The notes beneath the pieces are model-generated. The model saw only the letters and a program-made list of their open reading frames with translations. It had not been told where the DNA came from and did no database searches. A stretch of 6,137 nucleotides of DNA from Thermoplasmata archaeon (GTDB lineage Archaea > Thermoplasmatota > Thermoplasmata > Thermoplasmatales > Thermoplasmataceae), in assembly GCA_021811635.1 (NCBI GenBank), contig JAJZNS010000010.1, forward strand, positions 1 through 6,137, in the 5' to 3' direction. Position numbers and translations under genes: made by a program. How positions within the stretch are numbered: the first letter of the stretch is position 1; each line of letters begins with the position of its first letter. Of the stretch, positions 830 through 5,974 are shown one piece after another.

Positions 830-3475
830 TCAGCGTGCTGCACTGGCTTTCTTCGGGTTCTGTGTTCCGGCCGCAATCACCGTCTCATATATCCGGATCA
901 TCAGATCATTTCTGCCATCCTCTCCAGAGAGCTTTGAGTACACAATTGAAGGGTCGATCTGGAACTTATGGCTGATCAGCTTCGCCTGCACTATTCTGAG
1001 TAGACCATTCAGAGCTTTTGGAATGCTGTTCTGGCAGGCAGAATCGATCTTCAGAATCACCAGGGTTGTAAGGTCAGAGGAGGCATGGTGTTCAAATACC
1101 TGTTTGACGCTGTTTATCATTGCGTCCACAAATGGAAAATCAGTGAACTTTCCCGCGAACCTGCTTGCATCTGCCCCAATATTGCCCAGATCATTCCTGA
1201 TAATGGCTGAAACAAACCTTGCTGCAGTTGCCCACCCTTCATAGAAATGATCGGAATAATTTGAGGCAGATTCTTCGATATTGCCCAGGCATCTCACTGA
1301 ATCGTCTTTGTTGCCGACCGCAAGAAATGCCAGGGCGCCGATCATGTAAAAATACGGCAGGAAGCTCTCACCCGGGTCCAATTTGTCCAGGAAATGACTG
1401 AGGTCAGTGCCATTTGATAAATCTCCCCTGAAAACCCTGATGACAGACTGGAATGAAGCCATTACTTTTGAGGCCTCATCATCATTCAGCTTCTTCGCAA
1501 GGTCAGTTGCATCATTTAGGGAATTCTCAAGGCCGAGAAGATCAAGATCGAGCAGGGATGTTACAGCGACGGTTCTCCTGTAATATAACTGCATCGGCAG
1601 GTTGCCTGTTATCCTGAGCAGGTCAGCTTCAGTACGGAGATATGATTTTGCCTCATTTATCCTGCCGAGATTGTACTGTACATCAGCCAGAGAAGAGACG
1701 GTAAATGACCTTACGGCAATGTCGCCGATGGAATATGAAATCCTCAGGGCATTGATGTACCCGGATACCTCCTCGTTATACTGGCCCCTGGAGTCCAGGA
1801 TAAACCCCTTGTTTATGATATTGTACATGAGTTGCGTTTTCAATCCGTGTTCTTCGGAGACAACCATGCTCCGGTCATAGCTCTGGATCGCTTTCTCCTG
1901 GTCTCCCATCGCGAGGTAATTGTTGCCCATCAGCGTCAGGGCCTTGCCTGAGAGATCAAAGAAATTGTTTTTTTCAGACTCCTCAAGCAGGGATTTTGCC
2001 AGATCCATGGACTTCTCTCCTTCTCCACTGTTGAGATAAACCTCGCTCAGGATCGAGATCGCGTCCAGCCTGTTCCTGACGGTAATTTTAGGCCTTTTAA
2101 GTACGTCCTGCGCCATAGCCTCAGATTTGGAATATTCTCCCTGCAGGTTGTAAATAAACCCAAGGAGTATATTTCGCTGGATGCTGTATTCTGAATCTTC
2201 CAAGAGAGGCTCCAACCCCTCAATGGCCTTTGCAGCGTATCCCAGGTAATACAGGTGGGTGCTCCTTATGAGCTGCAGCTGTCCTATGACCTTGCTGTCC
2301 TGAATGTTGTTCCTTGCTAGATCGATGAACCGATCAAGCTGATCAAGTGAATGGAAAGACTTGACAATCGACATTCCCATGTTCCTGACAATCCCGCTGA
2401 CTGCCTTTGTGTCCCCATTCAGAAGTAAAGAGATAAGCTGCAGATGCAGCGGCAGCTTATCAAAAAGTTTATGGCTCCTGACTTCGAAAAGCACGTTCTC
2501 CGGTAAAGATTCAGCCCTGTTTTTAAGGAAATATCTGTAAAAACTTGTGCTCACGAACTTCACCTCTCCGGAAGCTATGTCCACAATTTTTTTTGCCTTC
2601 AGCTCTTCCAGCGCTTTTGGAGTACCATATTCCTTCGCGGGGAGAAGCACTTCAAGTGTTTCAAGGCCAATCGAACCCGATTCCATGGAGAGGAAGTCAA
2701 GAACCAGCAATTCACTGTCTGATAAGGAGGAGAAAGTGCTTTGGTAATACTCTTCAACCGACCCAGGGATCGGAAGAAATCTGAATACTGCCCAGTCGAT
2801 GGACTTGGATCGATTTATAATACCTATTTCTGAATAATATTGCAGCGTGCGATCTATAAGCCACAAGTTCCCGGAACACATCTCAAAAACTTCCGAGATA
2901 AATTCCATGGGAAGGTCATATCCAAGGCTGCGGATCAGGGAAGTGACATCTTCAATCGAAATTTCCCGAAGCTCCAGAAGATCAATTTTCGGTTCCTTTG
3001 AAACCAGGGTCCTGAAGAGATCGTAATTCTTCCACCCGCCGGTGGAATTGACCACGGTTCCTATCAGAATAAACGATCCCCTGGATTGAAGTTCTGCGAG
3101 ACGTATGAAGAGCGCCCTGCTCTGGTCGCTTCCCTCCTCAAGATTCTCGATCATTACCACGATTGTGGACGGATATCCTCTCTGGGCGTTGCGCTCGAAC
3201 GATGAAACCAGTTCGTCAGGATCTGAAAGCCTTGAGGTTTCTCCAATCTGGGAAAGGATGTCATTGAATTCCTGATATCCGGTCTGGTTCGATCCAGGGA
3301 AAATCTTTGTGTGAAATACCCGTGATCCGCTGGAGATCAGGGATTCCTTGATAATTCGCGCTAATGAACTGTTTTCTGAAGCATCCCTTCCGCTTATCAC
3401 AAAAGATCTGAGGTCCCTGCCAGGGGCTTCCGTGATCTTCCTGTACGCAGATATGACGTCCGTATAGCTTATCAA
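830..3475 (-). CDS. STAND/AAA-type ATPase-like protein with TPR repeats, degenerate P-loop
   Basis: This is an 881-residue cytoplasmic protein. Residues 20-215 follow the layout of an AAA_16/STAND NTPase domain: a P-loop strand and turn (VISGRDASENSS, 26-37), a Walker B-like strand (IVVMIENLEE, 105-114), a sensor-like strand (FILIGT, 135-140), and the GN element of the usual GNPxxL motif (202-203). Residues 240-320 look like the winged-helix linker of such proteins. From about 400 to 760 there are repeated helical pairs of TPR type (for example 439-459, 517-544, 597-624). The Walker A Lys is Asn35, its preceding Gly is Glu34, and the Walker B acidic pair reads Glu110-Asn111, so ATP hydrolysis is doubtful. 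No DNA-binding or cyclase domain is evident at either end. Such proteins usually act as signal-responsive scaffolds or regulators; the target here is unknown. The start is TTG (3473-3475), chosen because a TATA box lies 31 bases upstream and no ATG is nearby. Confidence 0.85.
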   Translation of the reverse strand: MISYTDVISAYRKITEAPGRDLRSFVISGRDASENSSLARIIKESLISSGSRVFHTKIFPGSNQTGYQEFNDILSQIGETSRLSDPDELVSSFERNAQRGYPSTIVVMIENLEEGSDQSRALFIRLAELQSRGSFILIGTVVNSTGGWKNYDLFRTLVSKEPKIDLLELREISIEDVTSLIRSLGYDLPMEFISEVFEMCSGNLWLIDRTLQYYSEIGIINRSKSIDWAVFRFLPIPGSVEEYYQSTFSSLSDSELLVLDFLSMESGSIGLETLEVLLPAKEYGTPKALEELKAKKIVDIASGEVKFVSTSFYRYFLKNRAESLPENVLFEVRSHKLFDKLPLHLQLISLLLNGDTKAVSGIVRNMGMSIVKSFHSLDQLDRFIDLARNNIQDSKVIGQLQLIRSTHLYYLGYAAKAIEGLEPLLEDSEYSIQRNILLGFIYNLQGEYSKSEAMAQDVLKRPKITVRNRLDAISILSEVYLNSGEGEKSMDLAKSLLEESEKNNFFDLSGKALTLMGNNYLAMGDQEKAIQSYDRSMVVSEEHGLKTQLMYNIINKGFILDSRGQYNEEVSGYINALRISYSIGDIAVRSFTVSSLADVQYNLGRINEAKSYLRTEADLLRITGNLPMQLYYRRTVAVTSLLDLDLLGLENSLNDATDLAKKLNDDEASKVMASFQSVIRVFRGDLSNGTDLSHFLDKLDPGESFLPYFYMIGALAFLAVGNKDDSVRCLGNIEESASNYSDHFYEGWATAARFVSAIIRNDLGNIGADASRFAGKFTDFPFVDAMINSVKQVFEHHASSDLTTLVILKIDSACQNSIPKALNGLLRIVQAKLISHKFQIDPSIVYSKLSGEDGRNDLMIRIYETVIAAGTQNPKKASAAR

Positions 3476-3785: not shown

Positions 3786-3964
3786 TACCTTTCCCTGTGC
3801 TTTCAGAGATATTGGATCACTTCACTGCTGCTCTCTTTTCTCACAAGGGTGAGATGATTGACTCAAGGAAATAATTCCATAAGAACCGCATCATGCTTTG
3901 GGAAGAGGCTCGAATCCATGATTCATTCAACAGAGCACCGGAACCAAAATACTTAAGTACTCGT

Positions 3965-3972
3965 TGTAAATA
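3965..3972 (+). promoter_or_regulatory. putative TATA box of the hsp20-regulator operon
   Basis: TGTAAATA differs by one base from TTTAAATA. Its position predicts transcription starting near 3994-3998, giving a leader of about 15 bases before the hsp20 ATG. A second candidate lies just upstream within the perfect palindrome TACTTAAGTA (3950-3959), which would put the start near 3981. Either way the operator-like dyad at 3979-3997 overlaps or abuts the start site. Confidence 0.55.
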
Positions 3973-3978
3973 TCAGGA

Positions 3979-3997
3979 TGACAACGTATGGTTGTCA
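3979..3997. promoter_or_regulatory. operator-like dyad TGACAAC-N5-GTTGTCA
   Basis: Two perfect 7-bp arms (3979-3985 and 3991-3997) flank a 5-base spacer, directly downstream of the probable TATA box and 3 bases before the Shine-Dalgarno site of hsp20. The motif reported for the Archaeoglobus heat-shock regulator HSR1 is CTAAC-N5-GTTAG; the AAC-N5-GTT core and spacing agree. The second gene of this operon encodes a protein of that family, so this is the best candidate for its autoregulatory operator. As RNA, the dyad would form a hairpin if transcription starts upstream of it. Confidence 0.6.
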
Positions 3998-4000
3998 AGT

Positions 4001-4006
4001 AGGTGA
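4001..4006 (+). promoter_or_regulatory. Shine-Dalgarno site of hsp20
   Basis: AGGTGA matches the archaeal Shine-Dalgarno sequence and lies 5 bases before the ATG at 4012. This decides the start in favour of that ATG over the in-frame GTG at 4003, which overlaps the site itself. Confidence 0.75.
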
Positions 4007-4011
4007 ATGAA

Positions 4012-4575
4012 ATGGTAGGAAAAAAGAACAGAGACAATGACGACTGGCGCAGGGATTTCTTTGGAGACTTTTTCGGCGACTTTGATTTCGATTTCAGGAG
4101 GCTTAATGACAGGATGATGAAGGTCTTCGGCAGACTCAGGGACAGCATAGAGGAAACTGGGGATGAGCCCTTTGTCTACGGGTTTACTTACCGGGTGGGA
4201 TCGGATGGCAAGCCAATATTCCAGGAATTCGGGAACGTTCCAGGGCTTGTCAGGACTCCAAACCTTGTTGACAATTCGTCCAAGGGGGCAAATATCAGGG
4301 AGCCCATAACTGATCTGAATGAGGACGATGAGAAGTATTACATGACGTTTGAGCTTCCAGGGGTAACTAAGAGCGACATTCATCTGGAAGTGAACGAGAG
4401 CAACATCATAGTCAGAACCAACGACGAATCCAGGCAGTACTACAAGGAGCTAGAATTCCCATCTCCCATTAATACAGACTCGGCCAAGGCAAAGTTCGTG
4501 AATGGGATACTTGATGTCTCAGTGACAAAGCAGAAGAAGGGAAAGCCGTCCGGGAAGAACATTGACATCGAGTGA
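4012..4575 (+). CDS. hsp20: Hsp20 / alpha-crystallin family small heat-shock protein
   Basis: This 187-residue ATP-independent chaperone should form cytoplasmic oligomers that hold unfolded proteins for refolding. The N-terminal arm (1-50) carries an unusual Phe/Asp/Gly tract (FFGDFFGDFDFDF, 16-28). Residues 54-75 (YGFTYRVGSDGKP, then EFGNV) match a segment typical of archaeal Hsp20 proteins just before the crystallin domain. The alpha-crystallin domain spans about 97-176, with FELPGV at 113-118 and the signature AKFVNGIL (A-x-x-x-N-G-x-L) at 160-168. The short tail carries the I-x-I motif (IDI, 184-186) used in oligomer contacts. The ATG at 4012 is preferred because AGGTGA lies 5 bases upstream. 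It is the first gene of an operon with the Phr/HSR1-like regulator, whose ATG lies 10 bases after this stop, and it probably responds to heat through the dyad at 3979-3997. Confidence 0.93.
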   Translation: MVGKKNRDNDDWRRDFFGDFFGDFDFDFRRLNDRMMKVFGRLRDSIEETGDEPFVYGFTYRVGSDGKPIFQEFGNVPGLVRTPNLVDNSSKGANIREPITDLNEDDEKYYMTFELPGVTKSDIHLEVNESNIIVRTNDESRQYYKELEFPSPINTDSAKAKFVNGILDVSVTKQKKGKPSGKNIDIE

Positions 4576-4585
4576 AGACCCACCC

Positions 4586-5182
4586 ATGGATGAGCTGATA
4601 GACTATTTCCTGTCCGCCATTGAAAACGAGACGCGAAGGGAGATACTCAGGATGCTCACCATGGACCCTTCATACGCCCTGGAGATGAGCAGGAAGATCG
4701 GAATTTCCCAGCAGGCAATTAACAAGCAGCTCTATTTCCTCGAAAGGGCTGGCCTGATTGCACTTGACGGCGTTATCCCAAGCAGCACCGGTCCGCCAAG
4801 GAGAATTTACAGGCCAACCAATTTTCATACCCTTGTTTTTGACTATTCACCGAATTTTGTAAGGGTCAAGCTCTATGACCTGACTGACGAAGATGAAGAC
4901 GCAACCCTTTCCTCAATAAAGAACGGCGAGAAGCCCATATCCATGCTCAGGGAGATCGATCAGAGAATTGACAAAATAATGGAGGAGAGAGGAGAATTGC
5001 TCAAGGTGAGGGATTCCATCATCTCTGCGCTCAGGGAAGAAATTGGGAGAAAATATTCGGACTCCGTCAGCAGGGAGGCTGCCCTGCGTTACATTGACTC
5101 TCTGGACGTAGTGGATGTTGCGAGGAAAACCGGCATTCCAGTATCAATGGTACAGGCAATAATCAAGGAAATAGATCCCTAA
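4586..5182 (+). CDS. winged-helix regulator of the Phr/HSR1 heat-shock repressor type
   Basis: This 198-residue protein is a probable DNA-binding repressor of its own operon. Residues 12-60 form an ArsR-like winged helix-turn-helix (NETRREILRML, then the recognition helix SQQAINKQLYFLERAGLI), followed by a basic wing (PPRRIYRP, 70-77). A beta-rich stretch (80-100), an acidic loop (101-107) and a long charged helix (117-157), probably a dimerising coiled coil, come next. This order and the EIDQRIDKIMEERGELLKVR pattern resemble Pyrococcus Phr as I recall it. The last 35 residues (ALRYIDSL, then VARKTGIPVSMVQAIIKEI) look like a second helix-turn-helix. The start is ATG 4586; an in-frame TTG at 4562 would overlap hsp20 and has no ribosome site. 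GTGA overlapping the hsp20 stop may serve as a weak Shine-Dalgarno. Coupling to hsp20 and the upstream dyad supports heat-shock autoregulation. The family call is from memory of sequence pattern, not alignment. Confidence 0.82.
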   Translation: MDELIDYFLSAIENETRREILRMLTMDPSYALEMSRKIGISQQAINKQLYFLERAGLIALDGVIPSSTGPPRRIYRPTNFHTLVFDYSPNFVRVKLYDLTDEDEDATLSSIKNGEKPISMLREIDQRIDKIMEERGELLKVRDSIISALREEIGRKYSDSVSREAALRYIDSLDVVDVARKTGIPVSMVQAIIKEIDP

Positions 5183-5187
5183 GGTAT

Positions 5188-5922
5188 CTATTCCTCCATT
5201 CTTGGTGCAAGATAGAAGGCGCCGTTGATGAGGGAATCCCTTCCGAACCTGAAATCTATTGTGAGCGGATAGTCATCCCTGAAGCTGAGCTTGAACTCCT
5301 CGCATGACTGGAGTGCCCGTGTGAATTTTATAAGATACTCTATTGGATATGAACTCTTGACTGGGTTCTCGCACCTGATTTCCTTGAGCAGATCCTTAGG
5401 CAATATGAGCTCAGATTCTTCTGTCTCGGAGCTGGATCGGGCCTTGAATTCTGTTGCCGTCAGCGAAAGGCGAATGGAATCAGAAACATCTTCTGCAGCC
5501 CTCAGCCCCTTGTCAAACTCCTGCTTGGCAAGAACGACAAAGTAATCTGAACTGATCTTCGGAATCCTGGGAATCGTCACGGCGTTTCCGTCAAGAAGAT
5601 TTATGGTCTTGATCACAGCGCCTATTTCAAAGGCGATCTTGTCCTTTTCAATTCTCATGGTGATCTCGTCGGAATCCCTGGCAACCTTGAGTACGTTTTT
5701 GAGCTTCTCAATGTCAATAGCCAGCTCCTCGTCCCGGTCAAGGGAATATTCAGCAAACAGCTCCTTGGGTATATCGAGGCTTATCATTGCCACATGAGAC
5801 GGATCCACCGCCTTGATGGAAATTCCCGTTTGATCGAGTTTGAATTTTGTTTCCGTGACCACGGTATTGAGCAGATCTGCTATCTCTTTTAAATTCTTGA
5901 CAGAAAGGGTTAACCTAGACAT
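5188..5922 (-). CDS. pcn: DNA polymerase sliding clamp (PCNA)
   Basis: This 244-residue protein is the archaeal sliding clamp, a homotrimeric ring that tethers DNA polymerase, ligase, FEN1 and other PIP-box proteins to DNA. It has the family's usual length and landmarks: the N-terminal clamp domain with DPSHVAM at 40-46, a connecting region around 112-130, the second domain with DDYPLTIDF at 216-224, and the C-terminal FYLAPRMEE that matches the canonical end of archaeal clamps. The start is taken as ATG 5922. The in-frame ATG at 5967 would add 15 residues not typical of the family and would lie on top of the probable TATA box. AAGGT on the minus strand, 8 bases before ATG 5922, is a plausible ribosome site. 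The stop lies 5 bases from the converging regulator stop. No sign of truncation or transfer is seen. Confidence 0.96.
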   Translation of the reverse strand: MSRLTLSVKNLKEIADLLNTVVTETKFKLDQTGISIKAVDPSHVAMISLDIPKELFAEYSLDRDEELAIDIEKLKNVLKVARDSDEITMRIEKDKIAFEIGAVIKTINLLDGNAVTIPRIPKISSDYFVVLAKQEFDKGLRAAEDVSDSIRLSLTATEFKARSSSETEESELILPKDLLKEIRCENPVKSSYPIEYLIKFTRALQSCEEFKLSFRDDYPLTIDFRFGRDSLINGAFYLAPRMEE

Positions 5923-5965
5923 GATATCATACCTTACCTTATCAGGCTCGTTAATCAACACTGCC

Positions 5966-5974
5966 ATAATTAAT
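5966..5974 (-). promoter_or_regulatory. putative TATA box of PCNA
   Basis: The minus strand reads ATTAATTAT, centred about 48 bases before the ATG at 5922. It predicts transcription starting near 5944 with a leader of about 20 bases carrying the AAGGT ribosome site. This supports the shorter PCNA start. A weaker alternative (GATTAA, near 5950-5957) would give an almost leaderless mRNA. Confidence 0.5.

Follow-up and report, generated by a model that had tools for sequence, protein, structure and literature searches.

The accessible part of a 2022 review (PMC9133787) names Phr and HSR1 as the only archaeal heat-shock transcription regulators identified so far; as outlined there, Phr covers the start site of hsp20 and blocks polymerase recruitment, and HSR1, encoded in the same operon as an hsp20, binds CTAAC-N5-GTTAG. 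According to the portions of the published work available to us, Phr controls at least ten genes, and genes for an sHSP and an AAA+ ATPase belong to the HSR1 regulon. Both proteins are assigned to arCOG01684, which a second, partially available source (PMC5852551) describes as present in most euryarchaea and holds to be ancestral.

A locus on contig JAJZNS010000010.1 of a Thermoplasmata archaeon (GCA_021811635.1) very probably represents an HSR1/Phr-type autoregulated heat-shock operon with a winged-helix repressor. In the 6,137-nucleotide stretch analysed (the window), hsp20 (4012..4575, plus strand, ATG start) encodes a small heat-shock protein of 187 aa that matches PF00011 (E 5.6e-11) and the NCBIfam archaeal Hsp20 model NF041800 (144.8 bits against a cut-off of 140). 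Its ribosome-binding site, AGGTGA, can be read from the sequence at 4001..4006 on the same strand; the GTG at 4003 that the open reading frame list gives as the hsp20 start falls within this motif, and AGGTGA-like sequences occupy the same position among the relatives listed. Ten bases beyond the hsp20 stop, a Phr/HSR1-type winged-helix regulator of 198 aa is encoded at 4586..5182 on the plus strand (PF12840, E 1.6e-7). The sequence-only reading had proposed this arrangement, with a winged-helix gene 10 bases downstream of an Hsp20 gene; a re-reading of the sequence bore out its coordinates and gene order, and PF00011, the archaeal Hsp20 model and PF12840 agree with its gene names. The regulator gene is followed by a convergent sliding clamp (PCNA) gene (5188-5967), with the stop codons 5 bases apart. 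Elsewhere in the window, a hemerythrin-domain protein (PF01814; 135-590, minus strand) is encoded near a tRNA-Arg (CCT) at 727-801, which is separated from the hsp20 operon by a gene for an 881-aa protein with TPR repeats (830-3475, minus strand). The nearest relative also carries this TPR gene (91% identity over the 583 aa compared), and in two congeners the same tRNA-Arg ends approximately 120 nt before the hsp20 start codon.

Between the promoter and the hsp20 ribosome-binding site lies the operator dyad (3979..3997, unstranded), with arms TGACAAC (3979-3985) and GTTGTCA (3991-3997) around the spacer GTATG (3986-3990). The core promoter (3944..3959, plus strand) comprises a BRE-like CCAAAA (3944-3949, identified by eye) and a weak TATA-like CTTAAGTA (3952-3959), at the position of which two congeners (L007 and L008) have TTTATATA. 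From the centre of the window's element to the first A of the left AAC is 27 bp; this distance was read by hand, as the automatic scan chose a nearer octamer, and it agrees with that of locus L006. In 56 of 71 family promoters the best TATA-like octamer is centred at the same 27 bp from the left AAC, and in 62 of 71 at 26-28 bp; in the remaining nine, the octamer scan picked another place. Given this distance, transcription should start inside the dyad. The perfect seven-base arms and their placement at the expected start had been recognized from the sequence, and both stand. The accompanying TATA box was correctly positioned, but its sequence is weak, which counts against the autorepressor-operon reading.

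The dyad itself is real and not a chance occurrence. The perfect TGACAAC-GTATG-GTTGTCA is the sole perfect copy in the 1.39 Mb genome, and the window holds two dyad matches at up to 3 mismatches, one of them perfect, versus an average of 0.20 in shuffled sequence (two matches are attained in 6 of 200 shuffles). Genome-wide at the same tolerance there are 33 sites versus 44 for a reversed control pattern; imperfect matches are thus uninformative, and the perfect site alone is distinctive. With a relaxed operator pattern the genome gives four sites; the three besides the dyad fall within reading frames or, in one case, on the border of one.

The regulator combines an ArsR-like winged helix with a Phr-like C-terminal helical region; its parts are a helix-turn-helix (about residues 13-60), a wing, a long helix (117-156) and C-terminal helices. 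A sequence search of the PDB returned 2p4w (Phr of Pyrococcus furiosus) first, over residues 3-149 (E 6.2e-11), and SurR second (E 1.1e-7). An AlphaFold2 model built from 31 aligned relatives (mean pLDDT 87.2, pTM 0.70) likewise had 2p4w as its top Foldseek match (E 8.5e-10; 205 alignment columns, TM 0.53-0.59, rmsd about 7), in keeping with the Phr/HSR1-like label that the protein had been given from its sequence. With 46.7 bits it scores far below the cut-off of 320 of the NCBIfam Phr model (NF053602), and by this measure the regulator is a relative of Phr rather than Phr itself. All 31 aligned family members match the Phr model at E <=1e-5 (best 1.4e-13), and 28 also match the SurR model. 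In the recognition helix, S41, Q43, A44 and K47 are invariant among the 31 and Q42 and I45 nearly so; this helix is as constant as the operator core. A search for covariation between operator bases and regulator residues placed its top-ranked columns outside the recognition helix, where they seem to follow lineage. Among the best 120 of 314 relatives from a database search, names are all generic ("ArsR family transcriptional regulator", "hypothetical protein"), and most entries are unnamed.

Conservation of the dyad in related genomes had been set beforehand as a test of the operator, and it is kept throughout the family. Seventy-five of 77 family genomes gave a regulator match, and 74 of them yielded 76 loci; G074 has only a weak match, probably to a paralogue. 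Among its named members, drawn from another collection, are Ferroplasma acidarmanus, Acidiplasma aeolicum and a Cuniculiplasma. For Cuniculiplasma, a partly available study (PMC7285479) reports two Hsp20 proteins that are slightly lower in the cold. All but three of the 76 loci include hsp20, those three starting at the regulator because the contig ends there, and in all 73 with hsp20 it lies directly upstream of the regulator on the same strand, with gaps of -2 to 56 nt. At two of these 73 loci the promoter is cut by a contig end, leaving 71 readable promoters, one per genome. All 71 contain the AAC-N5-GTT dyad with invariant AAC and GTT, and in 70 the core is found no more than 80 nt ahead of the start codon, versus 2.77 expected from dinucleotide shuffling. 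Around this core the arms vary; 17 distinct pairs occur, among them GTTGTCAAC-N5-GTTGACAAC, GTTGACAAC-N5-GTTGTCAAC and GTTAACAAC-N5-GTTGTTAAC; the window's dyad has 7 bp compared with 8 or 9 possible pairs in most relatives because the two outermost positions are unpaired in its genus. In one family member (L076) the dyad is degraded, and the neighbouring hsp20 frame is interrupted by a stop codon. The three genomes G009, G018 and G074, in which the regulator is missing, do not have this hsp20 either, although at 70-86% completeness gaps are possible.

The arrangement is not peculiar to this archaeon, since beyond the family it recurs at further loci of the same order. A search of the class with the regulator profile found a match in 210 of 400 genomes at E 1e-8 (132 of the 192 of good quality), and outside the family we read 20 hand-chosen high-scoring loci (E 1.7e-50 to 8.4e-36) and 20 from 18 chosen lower-ranked genomes. 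In other families of the order, all 15 loci read have the hsp20-regulator arrangement, and 14 have the strict core before hsp20 (9/9 high-scoring, 5/6 lower-ranked); at the fifteenth (L239), the dyad has a spacer of 6 bases, judged by eye. In other orders, the core is present at 18 of 21 orthologous loci (11/11 high-scoring, 7/10 lower-ranked), the seven lower-ranked cases comprising five before the regulator and two before hsp20; L231, L242 and L243 have no strict core. At the 11 high-scoring loci it lies 24-78 nt before the regulator start, versus 0.39 expected in 90 nt, and five of them have GTATAC before the left AAC. Considering all 16 lower-ranked orthologous loci outside the family, 12 carry the core, compared with none of four weak matches (L244-L247; E 4e-10 to 9e-9) judged non-orthologous, two of which come from genomes with a better match elsewhere.

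In these other orders the regulator is usually the first gene of its operon, and its partners differ. Regulator-hsp20-Cdc48/VAT occurs at L205, L208 (with a small frame in between) and L211, regulator-VAT at L206, L216 and L218, regulator-GrpE-DnaK at L217 and L229, and regulator-hsp20-GrpE-DnaK at L235; at L232 and L234, two different small heat-shock genes flank the regulator. Partner genes were checked with Pfam in L205, L208, L216, L217 and for the hsp20 of L235, and were otherwise named by eye. The operator therefore appears to go with the regulator and not with one particular gene. On a tree of 59 regulators, one change between the hsp20-first order and the others is enough, though its support is modest (85/65) and some branches are long and uncertain. 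By eye, GrpE- and DnaK-like genes lie downstream at L234, and at L205, L208, L211, L213 and L214 a tRNA-endonuclease-like gene diverges from the regulator, with the operator between the two.

Among described systems, HSR1 of Archaeoglobus fulgidus resembles the window in being an autoregulator (putative in the window) that shares an operon with hsp20, and its operator has the same AAC-N5-GTT core and spacer. The outer bases differ, as the sequence-only reading had noted: HSR1 has T before AAC where the window has C, and with flanks CAAC/GTTG the window does not match CTAAC-N5-GTTAG. A T in this position occurs in only 1 of the 71 family promoters. In the HSR1 operon the regulator comes first with hsp20 downstream, an order closer to the regulator-hsp20-VAT of L205 and L208 than to the hsp20-regulator of the window, where, compared by published description rather than by sequence, the regulator is the last gene and the operon has no Cdc48. 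The HSR1 regulon, with its sHSP and AAA+ ATPase, likewise resembles the regulator-first operons with hsp20 and Cdc48/VAT of other-order relatives.

Phr (Pyrococcus furiosus, PDB 2p4w) is the top match by both sequence and fold, and in the published descriptions as available it controls hsp20 and itself from a site that overlaps the start. In contrast, identity with the window regulator is only 25-26% and TM only 0.53-0.59, the recognition helix reads GQKAVLEH in Phr against SQQAINKQ in the window, and the elements given for the Phr site in the text at hand (TTTA, TGGTAA and AAAA) are not those of the window dyad. The Phr regulon also spans several operons, compared with one clear site for the window regulator in its own genome. 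SurR (PF0095, P. furiosus) shares the fold class and is the second-best PDB match by sequence, but it is a sulphur-metabolism regulator by NCBIfam name and has a CxxC redox switch in its HTH, whereas the window protein is free of cysteine. HrcA-CIRCE of bacteria also pairs a heat-shock repressor with an inverted repeat, the repressor often being encoded in its own target operon, but the protein is unrelated and the repeat has a spacer of 9 bases.

Taken together, these features suggest a simple circuit. At normal temperature, the repressor, presumably as a dimer, would sit on TGACAAC-N5-GTTGTCA, covering the transcription start and keeping RNA polymerase off a promoter bound by TBP and TFB. 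Upon heating, the repressor would loosen, allowing hsp20 and the repressor gene to be transcribed together, and new repressor, perhaps along with a restored folding state, may then switch the operon off again. Elsewhere in the class, outside this order, the regulator and its core operator are found at Cdc48/VAT and GrpE-DnaK operons as well.

Other readings of the locus deserve consideration. The dyad could be an RNA thermometer, that is, a hairpin in the mRNA leader that controls hsp20 translation rather than a protein-binding site; it lies directly upstream of the ribosome site and, fully transcribed, folds to -8.9 kcal/mol (z -2.94). However, the predicted start lies inside the left arm, and a transcript from 3983 would retain no stable hairpin (-1.4 kcal/mol, z 0.30), so the dyad probably acts as DNA. 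The fold would also leave AGGTGA uncovered, and changes among the 17 arm pairs are not chiefly of the G.U type: 130 of 153 pair cells are Watson-Crick, with 5 G.T, 3 A.C and 15 other, though the numbers are small. The three innermost bases of each arm are constant in all 71 family promoters, as expected for protein contacts, and in other-order relatives the core precedes the regulator instead of hsp20, making control by a leader hairpin very unlikely.

Alternatively, the regulator may bind the dyad but respond to a different stress (redox, metal or acid), Hsp20 then serving as a general output for protein damage. SurR is the second-best match in both the PDB and NCBIfam comparisons, the latter extending to 28 of the 31 family members, and a source available in part (PMC9426492) places it in the same arCOG as Phr/HSR1-type regulators; heat as the signal therefore rests on the neighbouring genes. 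Many of these archaea are also acid-dwelling, according to the literature as available. Yet the translated 198-aa regulator contains no cysteine, and thus neither a SurR-like CxxC nor a thiol metal site, which argues against a thiol or SurR-type switch, and Phr outscores SurR in sequence and fold comparisons. The partner genes in other orders (hsp20, VAT/Cdc48, GrpE and DnaK) further point to protein damage by heat as the likeliest signal, and we regard a different stress signal as improbable. The regulator might also be an activator or a global regulator instead of a local repressor. Some archaeal winged-helix proteins do activate transcription, and the family operator, searched at <=1 mismatch, has more than one match in 24 of the 77 family genomes. 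An operator downstream of the TATA element and over the start is, however, in a repressing position in archaea, one clear site exists in the window's own genome, and family genomes with exactly one match (48 of 77) or none (5 of 77) leave such a role highly improbable.

The autoregulated repressor operon thus remains the favoured reading, and its reach can be judged from the operator matches. In the window's own genome, the AAC-N5-GTT core is absent from the promoters of VAT, both thermosome genes, GrpE, DnaK and the second Hsp20, the last a shorter gene (G000 contig C10:36500-36748, L223) with a 136-aa frame matching PF00011. The expectation of further dyads ahead of cdc48/VAT, thermosome and AAA genes accordingly fails here for VAT, for both thermosome genes and for GrpE-DnaK but is borne out in front of VAT and DnaK operons of other-order relatives. 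Candidates for a wider regulon were rejected: two sites with 2 mismatches (L002 and L003) lie inside reading frames, that of L003 transposase-like by eye; two relaxed-pattern sites lie inside genes that by eye are ribonucleotide-reductase-like and RmlC-like; and L220 lies at the edge of a RadB-like gene, with its outer arms unmatched. The best reading of these site searches is that the regulator's only clear target in its own genome is its own hsp20 operon. The 24 family genomes with extra matches may hold a second target. Among the matches listed, the same or a near-identical operator-like sequence recurs in several copies per genome in G012, G029 and G037; these copies look like a repeat and are possibly parts of mobile elements. 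A perfect dyad near a contig end in G031 (L107) is probably a repeat of the same operon promoter.

The regulon thus looks to have shrunk to one operon in this genome, and perhaps across the order. We tentatively propose that an ancestral multi-operon HSR1-type regulon (hsp20, Cdc48/VAT and GrpE-DnaK) was reduced in Thermoplasmatales to a single closed loop of one repressor, one operator and one chaperone. As part of the same speculative scenario, the order-wide position of the regulator behind hsp20 could mean that a heat pulse makes chaperone first and repressor second, and the chaperone itself or the burden of unfolded protein might gate the repressor, such that the operon would be its own thermometer and timer.

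No description of this operon or its regulator in Thermoplasmata was found in the literature searched, which covered few subscription journals. Judged on sequence and predicted fold, the regulator would belong to the Phr/HSR1 kind as a new member, set apart by a different gene order, by operator flanks of its own and, apparently, by having just one target. The regulator and its operator can now be named in advance for Ferroplasma, Acidiplasma, Cuniculiplasma, their family and many class relatives, making archaeal heat-shock control, and the possible shrinkage of a regulon to one target, testable in a cultured strain.
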